45,810 bases of DNA. Source: a virus. Positions 1 through 3,606 of this stretch are shown piece after piece (positions within the stretch are counted from its first letter, which is position 1; each line of letters begins with the position of its first letter). The stretch spans positions 1 through 45,810 of IMG/VR virus record IMGVR_UViG_3300025098_000085; one strand, written 5' to 3'. The position numbers were made by a program, and so were the translations under genes. The notes under the pieces were generated by a model. The model did no database searches. It was not told the DNA's origin and worked only from the letters and a program-made list of their open reading frames with translations.

Positions 1-20
1 CTGCGTCCGTGGTGAATGTG
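1..20. repeat. 20-bp direct repeat, copy at contig start
   Basis: The sequence ctgcgtccgtggtgaatgtg opens the window. It recurs exactly at 44988-45007, and its first 16 bases recur at 45795-45810, the very end of the window. Joining the ends would give one full second copy lying just upstream of the 39-aa ORF at 45671-45790. Confidence 0.9.
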
Positions 21-36
21 TATGAATTTGGAGCAC

Positions 37-72
37 AAAAAATACCGCCGCTAAATATAATAATAGCGACGG
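37..72 (-). terminator. Intrinsic terminator after the early genes
   Basis: On the minus strand a 9-bp stem (CCGTCGCTA, paired with TAGCGGCGG) is followed by TA and six T. One pair is U-G in minus-strand RNA but C-A in plus-strand RNA, so the hairpin is fully paired only in the minus direction. It lies downstream of the ArdA-like gene and, if the contig is circular, just before the RNA polymerase module. Confidence 0.8.
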
Positions 73-107
73 ATTGTGATTAGGTTGTAATAAGAATTAC
101 AAATTAA

Positions 108-443
108 TTAAAAGTTTTGATTAAAGAAATAATATTCAGAATCAAAATACACAGCAAAGTAATCGTATTTCAACGATTGATGCCACACTAGTTCCCAATC
201 AATGGCAGTTTGTAGCCACACTGGGAGTGAATCAATCTCAGAAGAATAGCAATCACTCATGAAGTCTTCACAGAATGTTGCCTCATCACGATAACATCCA
301 CAGTATGCCTCTTCAAGTTGCTCAAGACTAGTGATTCCATAAGCTTCAAGTTCTTCTTGAAAATGCTTAACGTCAGTGACTGAGTCAGACTCAATTATTT
401 TAGAGATAGCATGATCAAGTTCAGAAAGAGTTTCAGTCAGCAT
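108..443 (-). CDS. ArdA-like antirestriction protein
   Basis: About 111 aa, very acidic. The C-terminal half follows the pattern of the C-terminal ArdA domain: Y-x-G-x-Y near EAYCGCYRDEATF, a D-C-Y turn, LPVWLQTAIDWE, then a final DYF and aromatic tail. ArdA proteins are DNA mimics that block type I restriction enzymes, which fits a gene expressed at once after entry. The start is uncertain: ATG at 443 is chosen, with an in-frame TTG at 476 as alternative. Neither has a clear ribosome binding site. It is shorter than the full ArdA (about 165 aa), so only part of the family is present. Function is inferred from the motif pattern alone. Confidence 0.62.
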   Translation of the reverse strand: MLTETLSELDHAISKIIESDSVTDVKHFQEELEAYGITSLEQLEEAYCGCYRDEATFCEDFMSDCYSSEIDSLPVWLQTAIDWELVWHQSLKYDYFAVYFDSEYYFFNQNF

Positions 444-479
444 AGCGTTGTAGATGTGTTGTTTGATGAGTGACAATAA

Positions 480-719
480 TCAGGCAGCAATCGGGAAGAC
501 TGACACACCGTCAGCCTTGCAGAACTTGTTAACCCACTTGCCGAAAGACTCGACATTGTGGAATAGAATGTCAAACATAGCATCTTCGTCAATGTTGCTG
601 TAGAGGTACTGATTGCCACTCTTGTAGGTAACCAGTGCTTGATTGTGCAGAGGAGAGATTTCAAGCTCTTTGATAGAAGAAGACTTGATGGTGTTACGAG
701 CAGCAGGAACGAAAAACAT
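480..719 (-). CDS. KTSC-domain protein, copy 2
   Basis: 79 aa starting with MFFVPAARN. Residues about 12-65 fit the KTSC domain: a serine run and hydrophobic strand, then Y-K-S-G-x-Q-Y-x-Y, then a helix ending in S-x-G-K-W-V-N. It is a diverged paralogue of the gene at 793-1035. KTSC domains are short, often phage-borne modules of unproven role. ATG 719 is chosen because it directly follows a leader with two hairpins shared with the paralogue. The reading frame is open further upstream (to 878) but that part overlaps the neighbour. It precedes the ArdA-like gene. Confidence 0.7.
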   Translation of the reverse strand: MFFVPAARNTIKSSSIKELEISPLHNQALVTYKSGNQYLYSNIDEDAMFDILFHNVESFGKWVNKFCKADGVSVFPIAA

Positions 720-720
720 G

Positions 721-782
721 TGAATGTAAAATGAGGTGGATAGTGTAGATGTGAAGTCTACATTGAAGGCACGAATGCCCTC
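721..782 (-). promoter_or_regulatory. Structured leader of KTSC copy 2
   Basis: On the minus strand: a GGCA-TTCG-TGCC hairpin (768-779), 5 nt, then a 6-bp stem with a 7-nt loop (744-749 with 757-762), then about 24 nt ending in ACATTCACATG. The same arrangement precedes the paralogue at 1035, with compensating base changes in both stems. An RNA element (cis-regulatory or stability) is inferred; conserved coding is the competing explanation. Confidence 0.55.
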
Positions 783-792
783 AAGGTAAACA

Positions 793-1035
793 TCAGCAAC
801 CGGCAGGCAATGCGTCGTAGGTTTGTGTGAACTCAACACGCTTGCTATCAACCAGGTTAGCGTTGATCCAGAAACCAAGAGAGATGTTTGGATTGAGCAT
901 CAGGTTAGCAATTGCACGACGTGACACGTTGGTGTAGTTATACACAGCACCGCTGGTGTAAAGAACAGAAGCAGTGCCGGTGAGCAAGTCAACTGCAACA
1001 CCGTCGCAGCAGGAAGAATTACGGATGATGAACAT
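793..1035 (-). CDS. KTSC-domain protein, copy 1
   Basis: 80 aa starting MFIIRNSSCC. The KTSC signature is clear: two serines, V-A-V-D, then V-L-Y-T-S-G-A-V-Y-N-Y-T-N-V and a helix with N-P-N-I-S-L-G-F-W-I-N. ATG 1035 is chosen on the paired leader; an in-frame ATG further upstream (about 1131) would overlap the neighbour and add a peptide weakly similar to the one encoded upstream of copy 2. Function unknown. The tandem duplication of protein and leader suggests the pair is kept for a shared regulatory reason. Confidence 0.72.
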   Translation of the reverse strand: MFIIRNSSCCDGVAVDLLTGTASVLYTSGAVYNYTNVSRRAIANLMLNPNISLGFWINANLVDSKRVEFTQTYDALPAGC

Positions 1036-1094
1036 GTGAATGTGTAGAGTGAATGGAGTAGCGATGAATGCTACAGTGAACGCACGAATGCGCT
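1036..1094 (-). promoter_or_regulatory. Structured leader of KTSC copy 1
   Basis: On the minus strand: CGCA-TTCG-TGCG hairpin (1081-1092), 6 nt, a 5-bp stem with a 7-nt loop (1058-1062 with 1070-1074), then 22 nt ending in ACATTCACATG. The order, loop sizes and spacings match the leader at 721-782, while the outermost pair of the first stem (G-C to C-G) and the closing pair of the second (A-T to C-G) have both switched. Confidence 0.55.
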
Positions 1095-1105
1095 CAGTGT
1101 AACAA

Positions 1106-1300
1106 TCAAAGCCAGTGAGACATGTACTCATCGAGCGTATAAATGTCGTCAGTGTCAGTCTCATAGATAAGCTCATCGCGTGACATGTGCCAGATGTCGC
1201 GTGTAAACTCGTCAACATTCTGCAAGGTGCAGTCGTCGTGAGCATAGTGAGCATGCTCTGCAATGAGAGCGTGGCGGATGTCGGAAGCTGTGTAAGTCAT
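1106..1300 (-). CDS. Small acidic early protein, leaderless
   Basis: 64 aa starting MTYTASDIRHALIAEHAHY, with an acidic C-terminal half. I do not recognise a family. The ATG lies exactly 6 nt after a CATACT -10 box, so the mRNA probably begins at the start codon. Rapidly made acidic early proteins in phages often bind host enzymes, but nothing in the sequence shows a target. Confidence 0.7.
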   Translation of the reverse strand: MTYTASDIRHALIAEHAHYAHDDCTLQNVDEFTRDIWHMSRDELIYETDTDDIYTLDEYMSHWL

Positions 1301-1306
1301 GCGTTA

Positions 1307-1335
1307 AGTATGGCAGAGAATGAGGCAGAAGTCAA
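1307..1335 (-). promoter_or_regulatory. Early sigma70-type promoter P1
   Basis: Minus strand: TTGACT (1330-1335), 17-nt spacer ending in an extended -10 TGC, CATACT (1307-1312), then 6 nt to the ATG at 1300. The CTCTTGACTT context is shared with P2 and P3. Confidence 0.8.
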
Positions 1336-1350
1336 GAGGCAGTAGACAGT

Positions 1351-1521
1351 TCACCAATTGACTTGCCAGGTGGATTCGTAAGCACCAGCAGCACGCGCAG
1401 CACGAGCAGCAGCAAGGTTAGCACGCTCAGCAGCGAGACACTCAGCAGCGATAGAAGCGAGACGCTCGTCAGAAGCGTACACACCTTGTGAGTTGAAGCG
1501 AATGGTTTGTGTTTTGTTCAT
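1351..1521 (-). CDS. Small alanine-rich early protein, leaderless
   Basis: 56 aa starting MNKTQTIRFNS. The middle is an alanine/arginine-rich helix (LAAARAARAAGAYE), and the end is STWQVNW. Family not recognised. ATG 1521 is preferred over the longer open frame because the promoter P2 lies inside that upstream stretch, leaving ATG at the transcription start. Confidence 0.7.
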   Translation of the reverse strand: MNKTQTIRFNSQGVYASDERLASIAAECLAAERANLAAARAARAAGAYESTWQVNW

Positions 1522-1527
1522 ACTGTT

Positions 1528-1556
1528 AGTATGGCATAGATTGGATGGAAAGTCAA
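1528..1556 (-). promoter_or_regulatory. Early sigma70-type promoter P2
   Basis: Minus strand: TTGACT (1551-1556), 17-nt spacer, CATACT (1528-1533) preceded by TGC, then 6 nt to the ATG at 1521. Same geometry as P1 and P3. Confidence 0.8.
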
Positions 1557-1581
1557 GAGGTGGTGGGCACCTTGTCAAGCG

Positions 1582-1752
1582 TCACATGCCATTGAGAAAG
1601 TCAGCCATTGCTTCTTCGTACTCCTCGTAGGTAGAGAAACGATCAGCAAAGCGTGTAGGAACTTGCTTCGTGCAAGGTTGCACAGCAGGAAGATCGCGTC
1701 CTTTTGACAGGATGTAAGAAGCGTATGGATTGGTTGTTTTGTTATTCATCAT
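1582..1752 (-). CDS. Small early protein, leaderless
   Basis: 56 aa (MMNKTTNPYASYILSKGR...), ending in an acidic helix EEYEEAMADFLNGM. Two adjacent ATG codons (1752 and 1749) are possible; 1752 lies 6 nt after the -10 box of P3, like the neighbouring genes. Family not recognised. The RFxDRFSTYEEYEEA segment looks like a compact helical domain. Confidence 0.65.
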   Translation of the reverse strand: MMNNKTTNPYASYILSKGRDLPAVQPCTKQVPTRFADRFSTYEEYEEAMADFLNGM

Positions 1753-1758
1753 GGTTAC

Positions 1759-1787
1759 ACCATAGCACAGAATGAAGCAAAAGTCAA
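1759..1787 (-). promoter_or_regulatory. Early sigma70-type promoter P3
   Basis: Minus strand: TTGACT (1782-1787), 17-nt spacer, TATGGT (1759-1764) preceded by TGC, then 6 nt to ATG 1752. Confidence 0.78.
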
Positions 1788-1802
1788 GAGGTTGTGGACA
1801 CC

Positions 1803-1937
1803 TTACTCACTGTCCTCATCTTCAATGCCGTCTAAGTATTCGTATACATAAGCGTGCATATTGTGGCGATGAGCATCATTTAACCCATCATACCAAAAGT
1901 CTACATAACCTTGCAAATCAATCAGCTCAGAGTTCAT
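1803..1937 (-). CDS. Small acidic early protein
   Basis: 44 aa (MNSELIDLQGYVDFWYDGL...), ending in the acidic tail GIEDEDSE. No family recognised. It overlaps the end of the upstream gene by 11 nt in another frame, implying coupled translation. The P3 promoter lies just beyond its stop codon. Confidence 0.55.
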   Translation of the reverse strand: MNSELIDLQGYVDFWYDGLNDAHRHNMHAYVYEYLDGIEDEDSE

Positions 1938-2091
1938 GAAATACCTCGATTGAGTTAGTGACAACAATGCCGTTTAGTTTGGCTGGTTTGTTACGCTTAG
2001 CGCGTTTCTGTTGATCACACCATAGCAGCGTTTTGATTGGCTTAGCGTGTAGTGTGAATGTGACATCCTTAAGTTTAACTTTGCTCATCAT
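1927..2091 (-). CDS. Small basic early protein
   Basis: 54 aa (MMSKVKLKDVTFTLHAKPIK...), with a basic centre QQKRAKRNKPAKLNG. It starts at an ATG that shares its A with the stop codon of the upstream gene (TGATG), a typical coupled arrangement. The alternating hydrophobic first 20 residues suggest a beta-strand-rich fold. No family recognised. Confidence 0.55.
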   Translation of the reverse strand: MMSKVKLKDVTFTLHAKPIKTLLWCDQQKRAKRNKPAKLNGIVVTNSIEVFHEL

Positions 2092-2420
2092 CAATTACGA
2101 GAGAAGGTGTAACCGTGCTCAAACTCTACAGTCTCATTGTTATCAGTAATGAACCACTCATAATTCTTCTGAAATACACCACAACGTGTGCCATCACACA
2201 GTGTGTTGATGATAGCATTCAAACGTGATTTAGTCGTGACTGATTGCCAACCACCATCATATACTTCAACAGTGTTGTCATCAATGGTGGCAATTAGATT
2301 CTTGTGCAGGTATACACAGCATACATCACGTGATGGTGAATACATAACCTCTGTGTTGTCTTTACGCCAGTCATTCTTGTTAATAACTGCGCTGCACATT
2401 TGACGTTCGATGAGTCGCAT
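2091..2420 (-). CDS. Early protein with GW-x-TTKSRLN motif
   Basis: 109 aa starting MRLIERQMC. The motif Y-D-G-G-W-Q-S-V-T-T-K-S-R-L-N-A-I-I and the preceding L-H-x-N-L-I-A-T-I recall a small domain of unknown function common in phage early regions. ATG 2420 is chosen since promoter P4 occupies 2445-2473 inside the longer open frame. An in-frame ATA at 2438 sits exactly at the expected transcription start, where P1-P3 have ATG. It is the first early gene after the 2.4-2.7 kb control block. Confidence 0.65.
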   Translation of the reverse strand: MRLIERQMCSAVINKNDWRKDNTEVMYSPSRDVCCVYLHKNLIATIDDNTVEVYDGGWQSVTTKSRLNAIINTLCDGTRCGVFQKNYEWFITDNNETVEFEHGYTFSRN

Positions 2421-2444
2421 AACCTCTGTGTCTTGTATGCATAT

Positions 2445-2473
2445 AGTATGGCACAGCTTAGCACTGTTGTCAA
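2445..2473 (-). promoter_or_regulatory. Early sigma70-type promoter P4
   Basis: Minus strand: consensus TTGACA (2468-2473), 17-nt spacer, TGC plus CATACT (2445-2450). The -10 and spacer end match P1-P3. It leaves about 18-20 nt of leader before ATG 2420. Confidence 0.78.
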
Positions 2474-2539
2474 GCGTTCTTTGATTAGTACTGCTTATCA
2501 TTATTGATAAGATGCTCTAATGTGCGAAGACAGATGTTT

Positions 2540-2559
2540 TGAGAACGATTCTCAATAAC
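2540..2559. repeat. Fur-box-like palindrome, copy A
   Basis: TGAGAACGATTCTCAATAAC: a 7-1-7 inverted repeat (one mismatched pair) followed by ATAA. It matches copy B at 2711 in 17 of 20 positions. Confidence 0.6.
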
Positions 2560-2575
2560 TGCAACACGTAGCATC

Positions 2576-2668
2576 CCGCTCGCGCTACGCGCTCGCTATG
2601 CCAGCGCCACGGTTGGCACAGCGCAACGCAGTATAGCACAGCGCAGAGGAAGCGAGCGCAGCGAGCGG
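2576..2668. repeat. GC-rich imperfect inverted repeat
   Basis: CCGCTCGC at 2576-2583 is complementary to GCGAGCGG at 2661-2668, and GCTCGCT at 2591-2597 to AGCGAGC at 2651-2657. Between the arms lie a small TGCCA/TGGCA hairpin (about 2599-2618) and an extended -10-like TGCTATACT on the minus strand (about 2630-2638). GC content is clearly above that of the flanks. Confidence 0.6.
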
Positions 2669-2710
2669 CAGAAAAAAAAAGTGTCCACCCGGCACCCCTT
2701 GGGGGGATAA

Positions 2711-2730
2711 TGAGAATCATTCTCAATAAG
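2711..2730. repeat. Fur-box-like palindrome, copy B
   Basis: TGAGAATCATTCTCAATAAG contains a perfect 7-1-7 palindrome (TGAGAAT-C-ATTCTCA). Extended leftward it reads GATAATGAGAATCATTCTC, 17 of 19 to the classical Fur box. A third related copy lies at 27169-27188. The end of the small ORF at 2723-2866 overlaps it. Confidence 0.65.
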
Positions 2731-2866
2731 ATAGGTCAGACAAATTTCTGTCATTTTTTAACAAGGTATACTCTACGATCTCGCCAGTTTCCGCCTGTAA
2801 CTGCAGTAAAAACGTATCTGGACCGGTTTCAACCAGTCCGACGATCAGCATATTAAGTAAAAACAT
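2723..2866 (-). CDS. Small protein downstream of thyX
   Basis: 47 aa starting MFLLNMLIVGLVETGPDTF. It is compact and strand-rich, with E-T-G-E-I-V-E-Y near the middle. ATG 2866 follows the thyX stop by only a few nt, so it is probably cotranscribed. No family recognised; could be a chance ORF but spacing and direction fit. Confidence 0.5.
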   Translation of the reverse strand: MFLLNMLIVGLVETGPDTFLLQLQAETGEIVEYTLLKNDRNLSDLSY

Positions 2867-2870
2867 GTGT

Positions 2871-3500
2871 TTAGCAGAACATAGCTGCGTATATGGTGGG
2901 AAATTCGTGTTCAATCAAGCCTTTAACCTGATCTGCGATAAGTTTATGTTCATATTGGGTACCATTAGCACAACGTAGGTCACAATAGTGCAACCAGGAG
3001 CGTAGGGTACCGTTCATATAGAGTTTAGTAGGTGTTGAGAGGGGTAGAATATCTCTTGCACATTCTTTAGCCACACCAGCTGCCAACATCTCGTTATATA
3101 GGCTTTCACTAAGCTCAAACAAGCTATTAATCTTAATCATAAAGTCTTTTACAGTATAGACTTCTAGATCATCAACACTATTCTGTCTATTCTTCTCATC
3201 CTGTCTCCGCAGTTGGGGCAGGAGAGCGTGTTTATCTACTTGAGCGTACCTTTGGGAAAACTCTTGAAAACTAAAGGATCTGTGACGTAAGATTTGAGCA
3301 GCAACACTTCGGGTTGTCTCAATCTGTACACACATGTTGACCATCTCAAAAGGTGACCAATGTTTATGTTTAATCAAGTATCTAATCAAACGTTCTGACT
3401 CTGGGTTATCCTGATTATCAGGGTTTGATACACGAGCCATATATGCTATAAGCTTTTCAGCATCTGGGGTAGTATGTACTAATGATACTGTATGATACAT
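2871..3500 (-). CDS. thyX: FAD-dependent thymidylate synthase ThyX
   Basis: 209 aa, normal ThyX length. It makes dTMP from dUMP using methylene-tetrahydrofolate and reduced FAD. The diagnostic motif is present as RHRSFSFQEFSQRY (family form RHRxxSxxExSxRY), preceded by the V-A-A-Q-I-L helix. The C-terminal region with the S-T-P-T-K-L-Y and R-S-W-L-H-Y-C-D-L-R segments matches the dUMP-binding end. With NrdA/B and MazG it supplies nucleotides for phage DNA. It is the last recognisable gene of the late operon, behind a promoter-like element and a strong hairpin. Confidence 0.95.
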   Translation of the reverse strand: MYHTVSLVHTTPDAEKLIAYMARVSNPDNQDNPESERLIRYLIKHKHWSPFEMVNMCVQIETTRSVAAQILRHRSFSFQEFSQRYAQVDKHALLPQLRRQDEKNRQNSVDDLEVYTVKDFMIKINSLFELSESLYNEMLAAGVAKECARDILPLSTPTKLYMNGTLRSWLHYCDLRCANGTQYEHKLIADQVKGLIEHEFPTIYAAMFC

Positions 3501-3568: not shown

Positions 3569-3606
3569 GAAGGAAGGAGTGTCGTTAGACACGAGTTCCT
3601 TCCTTC
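3569..3606 (-). other. Strong hairpin between terL and thyX
   Basis: GAAGGAAGGA (3569-3578) pairs with TCCTTCCTTC (3597-3606). Inside, GTGTC (3579-3583) pairs with GACAC (3588-3592) around a 4-nt loop, with a 4-nt bulge on one side. No T-run follows on either strand, so an RNA processing site or 5' stabiliser for thyX mRNA is more likely than a classical terminator (inference). Confidence 0.6.

Follow-up and report, generated by a model that had tools for sequence, protein, structure and literature searches.

The RNase III sites of phage T7 (R0.3, R0.5, R1, R1.1, R1.3; for R1.1 see PMC6121014) resemble the RNA element described here in several ways. Both are found in the early region of a T7-like phage, at gene junctions behind stop codons, and both are imperfect two-stem hairpins with an internal loop; the two-helical-turn criterion is met by our element. 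When we folded the T7 0.4/0.5 junction, two stems with an internal loop followed the stop codon UGA, which takes part in the lower stem by pairing to UCA. In contrast, the element and the T7 sites have no common sequence, the internal loop of the element is smaller, and its 3' strand has a conserved second downstream partner (forming hairpin 2, below) that was not seen at the T7 junctions. Cleavage of the element has not been demonstrated.

Riboswitches and attenuators are also similar, in that one strand has two alternative partners and both pairings are conserved. However, the element has no visible ligand-binding core, terminator or ribosome-site sequestration, and it precedes unrelated gene families. 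The put RNAs of phage HK022 are short two-hairpin RNAs of early phage transcripts, found once per operon near the promoter; the put hairpins coexist, whereas the folds of our element compete and occur at successive gene junctions.

The literature searched contained no description of an element of this kind. Rfam 15 returned only chance-level matches, away from the elements, in positions 1–3000 of the window (the whole stretch of DNA analysed, a 45,810-base virus record from a T7-like cyanophage), and no match up to E 1 in 11 related loci; a first-pass annotation of the same DNA had likewise described an RNA unfamiliar to its reader. A scan for terminator-like sequences found no intrinsic terminator at either element in the window; hairpin 2 is followed by mixed C/A/U. 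We concluded that the element, which has no Rfam 15 match for the sequences tested, may work like the T7 RNase III sites but with an extra strand that was not seen there. According to the papers searched, it is not known how early messages are divided in T7-like cyanophages, or how they survive when host RNase E activity is raised during infection. The element, which many marine phages carry, is a concrete, sequence-defined candidate for which both the cut position and the resulting 5' and 3' ends can be predicted.

Two copies of the element in the window

The closest annotated records to the window are MedDCM-OCT-S04-C24 (78.7% identity, 96% of 1 kb) and S-RIP1. The minus strand carries the window genes in the order terminase, thyX (thymidylate synthase), small early ORFs, two KTSC-like genes and an antirestriction-like ORF, after which the phage RNA polymerase gene spans the record ends (names by inspection). 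The order from KTSC to polymerase is unbroken in relatives, for example L014. The features of the early region are as follows.

480–719, minus strand: KTSC-like gene 1 (79 aa), from ORF and homologues; Pfam KTSC weak, E 0.05; PHROG 7365, E 1e-16
793–1035, minus strand: KTSC-like gene 2 (80 aa), from ORF and homologues; Pfam KTSC weak, E 0.04; PHROG 7365, E 2e-24
733–798, minus strand: whole element, copy 1, before KTSC-like gene 1; covariance model R1, 79.6 bits, E 5.6e-17, in training set
752–795, minus strand: copy 1, extended hairpin; RNAfold, RNAalifold and pair counts
795–793, minus strand: copy 1, UGA (stop codon of KTSC-like gene 2)
791–786, minus strand: copy 1, P1 5' strand GUUUAC
784–763, minus strand: copy 1, P2, with UUCG loop at 775–772
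761–756, minus strand: copy 1, P1 3' strand GUAGAC
754–752, minus strand: copy 1, UCA
745–761, minus strand: copy 1, alternative hairpin 2 (GUAGA 761–757, 7-nt loop, UCUAC 749–745); pair counts and tree-aware test
1046–1111, minus strand: whole element, copy 2, before KTSC-like gene 2; covariance model R1, 80.8 bits, E 2.9e-17, in training set
1065–1108, minus strand: copy 2, extended hairpin; RNAfold, RNAalifold and pair counts
1108–1106, minus strand: copy 2, UGA (stop codon of ORF 1300–1106)
1104–1098, minus strand: copy 2, P1 5' strand UGUUACA
1096–1077, minus strand: copy 2, P2, with UUCG loop at 1088–1085
1075–1069, minus strand: copy 2, P1 3' strand UGUAGCA
1067–1065, minus strand: copy 2, UCA
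1058–1074, minus strand: copy 2, alternative hairpin 2 (GUAGC 1074–1070, 7-nt loop, GCUAC 1062–1058); pair counts and tree-aware test
1307–1335, minus strand: sigma-70-like promoter TTGACT-17-CATACT, ahead of ORF 1300–1106; consensus scan
1556–1528, 1787–1759 and 2473–2445, minus strand: similar sigma-70-like promoters; consensus scan

KTSC-like gene 1 lies downstream of copy 1 and has a leader without a Shine-Dalgarno sequence. KTSC-like gene 2 lies downstream of copy 2, and its stop codon is the base of copy 1. Judged from sequence matches, the KTSC name is only weakly supported for the two proteins (Pfam E about 0.05, below the cut-off); both belong to PHROG 7365, whose function is unknown. 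The number of promoter-like sequences in the region barely exceeded that in shuffles, and the four strong minus-strand ones precede early ORFs (consensus scan). The ORF behind KTSC-like gene 1 (window 476–108, minus strand) had a weak match to ArdA antirestriction proteins (E 2e-4, below the cut-off).

The first-pass annotation had placed a duplicated leader at 721–1094, with a UUCG-loop stem, a second hairpin with a 7-nt loop, and a common end, ACATTCACATG, before both KTSC genes. These parts are present on the minus strand, and ACATTCACATG ends both window leaders. The first stem is GGCA-UUCG-UGCC in the leader of gene 1 and CGCA-UUCG-UGCG in that of gene 2; the second hairpin is GUAGA-CUUCACA-UCUAC and GUAGC-AUUCAUC-GCUAC, respectively. 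The compensating changes that it had described between the two copies are thus real, and they recur across 46 homologous leaders. Its span, however, omits the 5' strand of the actual structure, and the elements extend from 798 to 733 and from 1111 to 1046. Likewise, both of its hairpins are there, but the drawing missed the competing and more stable P1/P2 fold, which excludes hairpin 2; in copy 1, hairpin 2 and P1 have GUAGA in common.

Compared with dinucleotide shuffles, the sense RNA of the two window leaders folded strongly (z −5.5 and −5.4), and antisense folding was weak (z −1.9 and −1.4). A raw folding-energy scan of the window ranked copy 2 fifth on its strand and did not list copy 1; therefore, stability alone would miss half of the copies. 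The R1 model identified exactly two window copies (81 and 80 bits). The next best score, 14.5 bits at window 5592–5547, was rejected as a chance match without P2.

Covariation of the two alternative folds

Homologous leaders were gathered from IMG/VR and annotated phages via KTSC protein searches and a DNA pattern. RNAfold predicted one extended hairpin for nearly all of 49 cores, with the consensus plan UGA-N-(6-7 nt)-internal mismatch-P2-internal mismatch-(6-7 nt)-N-UCA. The extended hairpin is ~45 nt long and begins with the upstream stop codon. It consists of an outer UGA/UCA pairing, a 1x1 mismatch, P1 (6–7 bp), a small internal loop and the enclosed UUCG hairpin P2 (6–9 bp), for a total of 17–20 bp with small internal loops; the P2 loop is often of the UNCG type. 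RNAalifold selected the same extended hairpin from a sequence-only MAFFT alignment of 46 leaders.

The first-pass suggestion of a structured RNA element was strongly supported by these 46 leaders. Pairing was found in 95.7% of P1/P2 cells (74.7% in shuffles), 11 of the 17 pairs had changed on both sides, and the covariation score was 0.533, compared with 0.142 ± 0.013 for shuffles; sliding the partners by 1–3 columns reduced the score to 0.12 or less. For hairpin 2, the cells were 92.2% paired and the score was 0.318 (0.074 ± 0.017 in shuffles). Because hairpin 2 uses the GUAG strand of P1, it is an alternative to P1 and does not coexist with it. This shared strand covaries with its upstream partner and with its downstream partner.

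Covariation was also assessed with a tree-aware test, in which columns were simulated on a FastTree tree with the observed substitution numbers; the null is R-scape-like, and R-scape itself was not used. Among all column pairs of the 46 leaders, eight were significant at E < 0.05. These comprised five pairs of P2 (22-33, 23-32, 24-31, 19-36, 17-38), pair 10-45 of P1 (E 0.02), pair 44-52 of hairpin 2 (E 0.001), and pair 16-38, which repeats the signal of 17-38 and splits the two leader types. When the set was widened to 145 distinct sequences, extracted with the covariance model, significance was confined to the two variable P1 pairs (E 0.003 and 0.011). Each of P1, P2 and hairpin 2 is thus supported beyond relatedness, though P1 and hairpin 2 are mutually exclusive. 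A U-G pair of P1 was retained in 43 of 45 distinct rows of the 46-leader set and one P2 pair was G-U in 34 of 45, again pointing to RNA of the gene sense.

After another pattern scan and a query with the KTSC protein of S-RIP2, the collection stood at 177 distinct copies, nearly all of them from T7-like cyanophages. Hairpin 2 could form all five of its pairs in 174 of the 177, compared with 32 of 177 with shuffled tails, and its loop was 6–8 nt in 168 copies. This count let the downstream position float, and the second pattern scan required GUAGC and GCUAC, so that part of the set was selected for hairpin 2; the fixed-column test is the unbiased one, and the first 46 leaders were partly found by the KTSC protein alone. 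The element is conserved in shape rather than in sequence, and copies in which GAGGG, GATGG, GCAGA or GCAGG replaces GUAGN kept both pairings. The hairpin-2 loop and the UNCG-type loops were partially conserved; apart from some of the loop positions and the helices themselves, there was no conserved core. We regard it as practically certain that this is a conserved RNA element with two alternative folds and that both pairings are under selection. The two competing folds are kept by covariation independently of the genes that they precede.

In 172 of 174 copies folded with the helices enforced, the extended hairpin was more stable than P2 plus hairpin 2, and the mean difference was 4.9 kcal/mol. 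When the RNA was made to begin at GUAG, 172 of 174 copies folded with a hairpin directly at the 5' end. The R1 model ends a median of 12 nt ahead of the ATG, a Shine-Dalgarno-like 4-mer was present at only 3 of 164 start codons, and by inspection neither fold pairs the start-codon region.

The same three-strand layout with other sequence was seen directly after stop codons in S-CBP3, P-SSP10 and NATL1A-7 (L158 at 2145, L160 at 2683, L163 at 1394), with the strands UCUCUC/GAGGGA/CCCUC and UCUUUC/GAAGGA/CCUUC. The sequence-free search for three strands had a high background (about 20 per strand in the window) and was used only where position supported it.

Distribution and genomic position

The R1 model was built from the 46 leaders, and phage records in which the element is present have one to three copies by this model. 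The copies come from chosen scans; the counts are therefore lower bounds and not a census. Genes of T7-like cyanophages, mostly thyX, terL and RNA polymerase, accompanied the element at 107 of 111 loci. A pattern search of 84,980 bacterial genomes gave 12 matches, scattered over phyla, none of which fitted the model (best 13.5 bits), and a bacterial origin was rejected on these scores.

The first-pass annotation had tied the element to KTSC genes, and it does precede such genes in both window copies. Among the 168 copies with a downstream ORF, however, 67 are followed by KTSC genes and 101 by members of other families, including DUF7222, antirestriction-like, DUF3574/SAM-lyase-like, Kyano_Gp96 and DUF7227 proteins and more; KTSC-specific regulation as a general role was rejected on this count. 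In S-RIP2, the KTSC gene is without the element and its two downstream neighbours have it. An ORF ends at the element in 148 of 177 copies, and in 104 of these its stop codon coincides with the outer strand; in some copies the stop codon is elsewhere, or the outer pair is UGU/ACA. The element sits between genes of the early, host-transcribed region, at successive junctions. It belongs to early-gene junctions and is not specific to KTSC.

Other sequences occupy the corresponding position in some relatives. Before the K2-type KTSC gene of L028, L053, L081, L106, L140, L141 and L023, a sigma-70-like promoter (TTGACT-17-TACACT type) replaces the element. A short tRNA-like piece precedes the KTSC gene in S-RIP2, S-SBP1, S45-C4, P-SSP7, P-SSP10 and 9515-10a (L003 ~1720–1790, minus strand; L155 ~585–660; L156; L157 ~598–655; L160/L161 ~1390–1465). 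It has a T arm with a TTCRAGT loop, an acceptor-like stem and one small arm, followed in most cases by a separate hairpin. True tRNA genes were rejected in these leaders, as ARAGORN found none and Rfam made no tRNA call. The tRNA-like piece may replace the element as a processing site.

Possible functions of the element

Our preferred reading is that the element is an intercistronic processing site of the early region, like the RNase III sites of T7, a proposal we judge about as apt to be right as wrong; cleavage is inferred, without 5'-end or enzyme data. The element probably marks the points at which one long early transcript is divided into several, each with protected ends. Two conserved, exclusive folds are most simply read as an order in time. 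The more stable P1/P2 would form first, and the extended hairpin, at about 17–20 bp, would be a cleavage site for host RNase III, as at the T7 R sites. Cutting in or close to the internal loop, immediately ahead of GUAG, would remove the P1 5' strand, and the upstream message would then end in the P2 hairpin. The downstream message would start with the freed GUAG strand, which could now form hairpin 2 and so shield that message from 5'-end-dependent decay and keep the leader, which has no Shine-Dalgarno sequence, single-stranded. Cyanobacteria encode RNase III (PMC10989914). Host RNase E rises upon P-SSP7 infection (PMC9692554), which is why a protected 5' end would matter. By inspection, the promoter that replaces the element in L028, L106, L140 and L141, together with the promoter-like sites at the early ORFs of the window, looks as if each gene gets its own end either way; each early gene would gain its own mRNA end through a promoter or through the element.

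Processing is supported by the presence of the element at junctions of many unrelated early gene families, by covariation with shared columns, and by the 5'-end hairpin noted above. Against it, there are no cleavage or 5'-end data, and for an RNase III substrate the stems are short and interrupted by mismatches; we know of no substrate rules for marine cyanobacterial RNase III. By inspection, the T7 sites are without the hairpin-2 strand, and plain processing alone needs no stop codon within the stem. The stop codon, which falls precisely within the outer strand of 104 of 148 ORF-following copies, speaks for the main rival, a switch coupled to translation. A ribosome terminating on the upstream gene would cover the P1 5' strand that directly follows the stop codon, so that GUAG pairs downstream in hairpin 2; without the ribosome P1/P2 would form, and the fold would set the processing, decay or translation of the next gene. 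The conservation of both exclusive folds fits this switch, as does the weaker U-G of P1 where hairpin 2 has C-G (158 of 177 copies). However, the unpaired start-codon region in both folds means that a direct effect on translation is not evident, several kcal/mol favour P1/P2, and some copies have the stop codon elsewhere or the UGU/ACA outer pair. We consider the switch unlikely, but it is not excluded and could act together with processing. A joint form, also doubtful at present, would be a new class of cis-acting phage RNA: via the stop codon in P1, the ribosome that completes the upstream gene would choose between a cleavable long hairpin and a protective short one. If so, the cutting of early messages would be linked to translation, gene by gene.

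Other rivals are less likely. A binding site for a phage protein (e.g., KTSC itself) or a host protein, which would pick one fold and repress or stabilise the message, could explain the partial conservation of the hairpin-2 and UNCG-type loops and the KTSC genes behind both window copies; it is made improbable by the other families that follow 101 of 168 copies and by the arrangement in S-RIP2. Exclusive hairpins in host-transcribed early operons also recall RNAs that modify the host RNA polymerase (HK022 put-like) or attenuate between early genes by terminator and antiterminator. That possibility is slighter still, given the negative terminator-like scan at both elements, the short hairpin-2 stem without a U tract, and copies at successive junctions instead of once behind a promoter. 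The first-pass annotation had offered a conserved N-terminal extension of the KTSC proteins as its alternative, and a short overlapping leader ORF can be considered with it: IRAFxVxF is readable in both window copies, and MFTLRAFVPSM-stop in another frame of copy 1. Across the 67 copies before KTSC genes, however, GUAG stands in random phase to the KTSC start codon (21/23/23), the KTSC frame is interrupted by a stop codon in 38, and the stems are kept. The TGATG start of the short frame is TGATAG, TGATAC or others in relatives, and unrelated genes are preceded by the same element. On these grounds we excluded both forms of a coding leader, with hardly any doubt remaining.

Other hairpins of the region

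Three further structures were observed. The gap between terminase and thyX (window 3569–3606, minus strand) contains a strong hairpin, GAAGGAAGGA...GUGUC-GUUA-GACAC...UCCUUCCUUC, which is a candidate for the late transcription end. Between thyX and the early ORFs (window 2581–2642, minus strand) lies the 62-nt stretch that folds most stably on the minus strand, at −33 kcal/mol. Lastly, a long, near-identical hairpin, GAAGGTCTTGATCTCGACTCTCCC...GGGGAGGAGAGTCTCGATCTTCAA, was found near the left end of S-SBP1 (L155 ~345–405) and upstream of KTSC in S-RIP2 (L003 ~1945–2010, minus strand).
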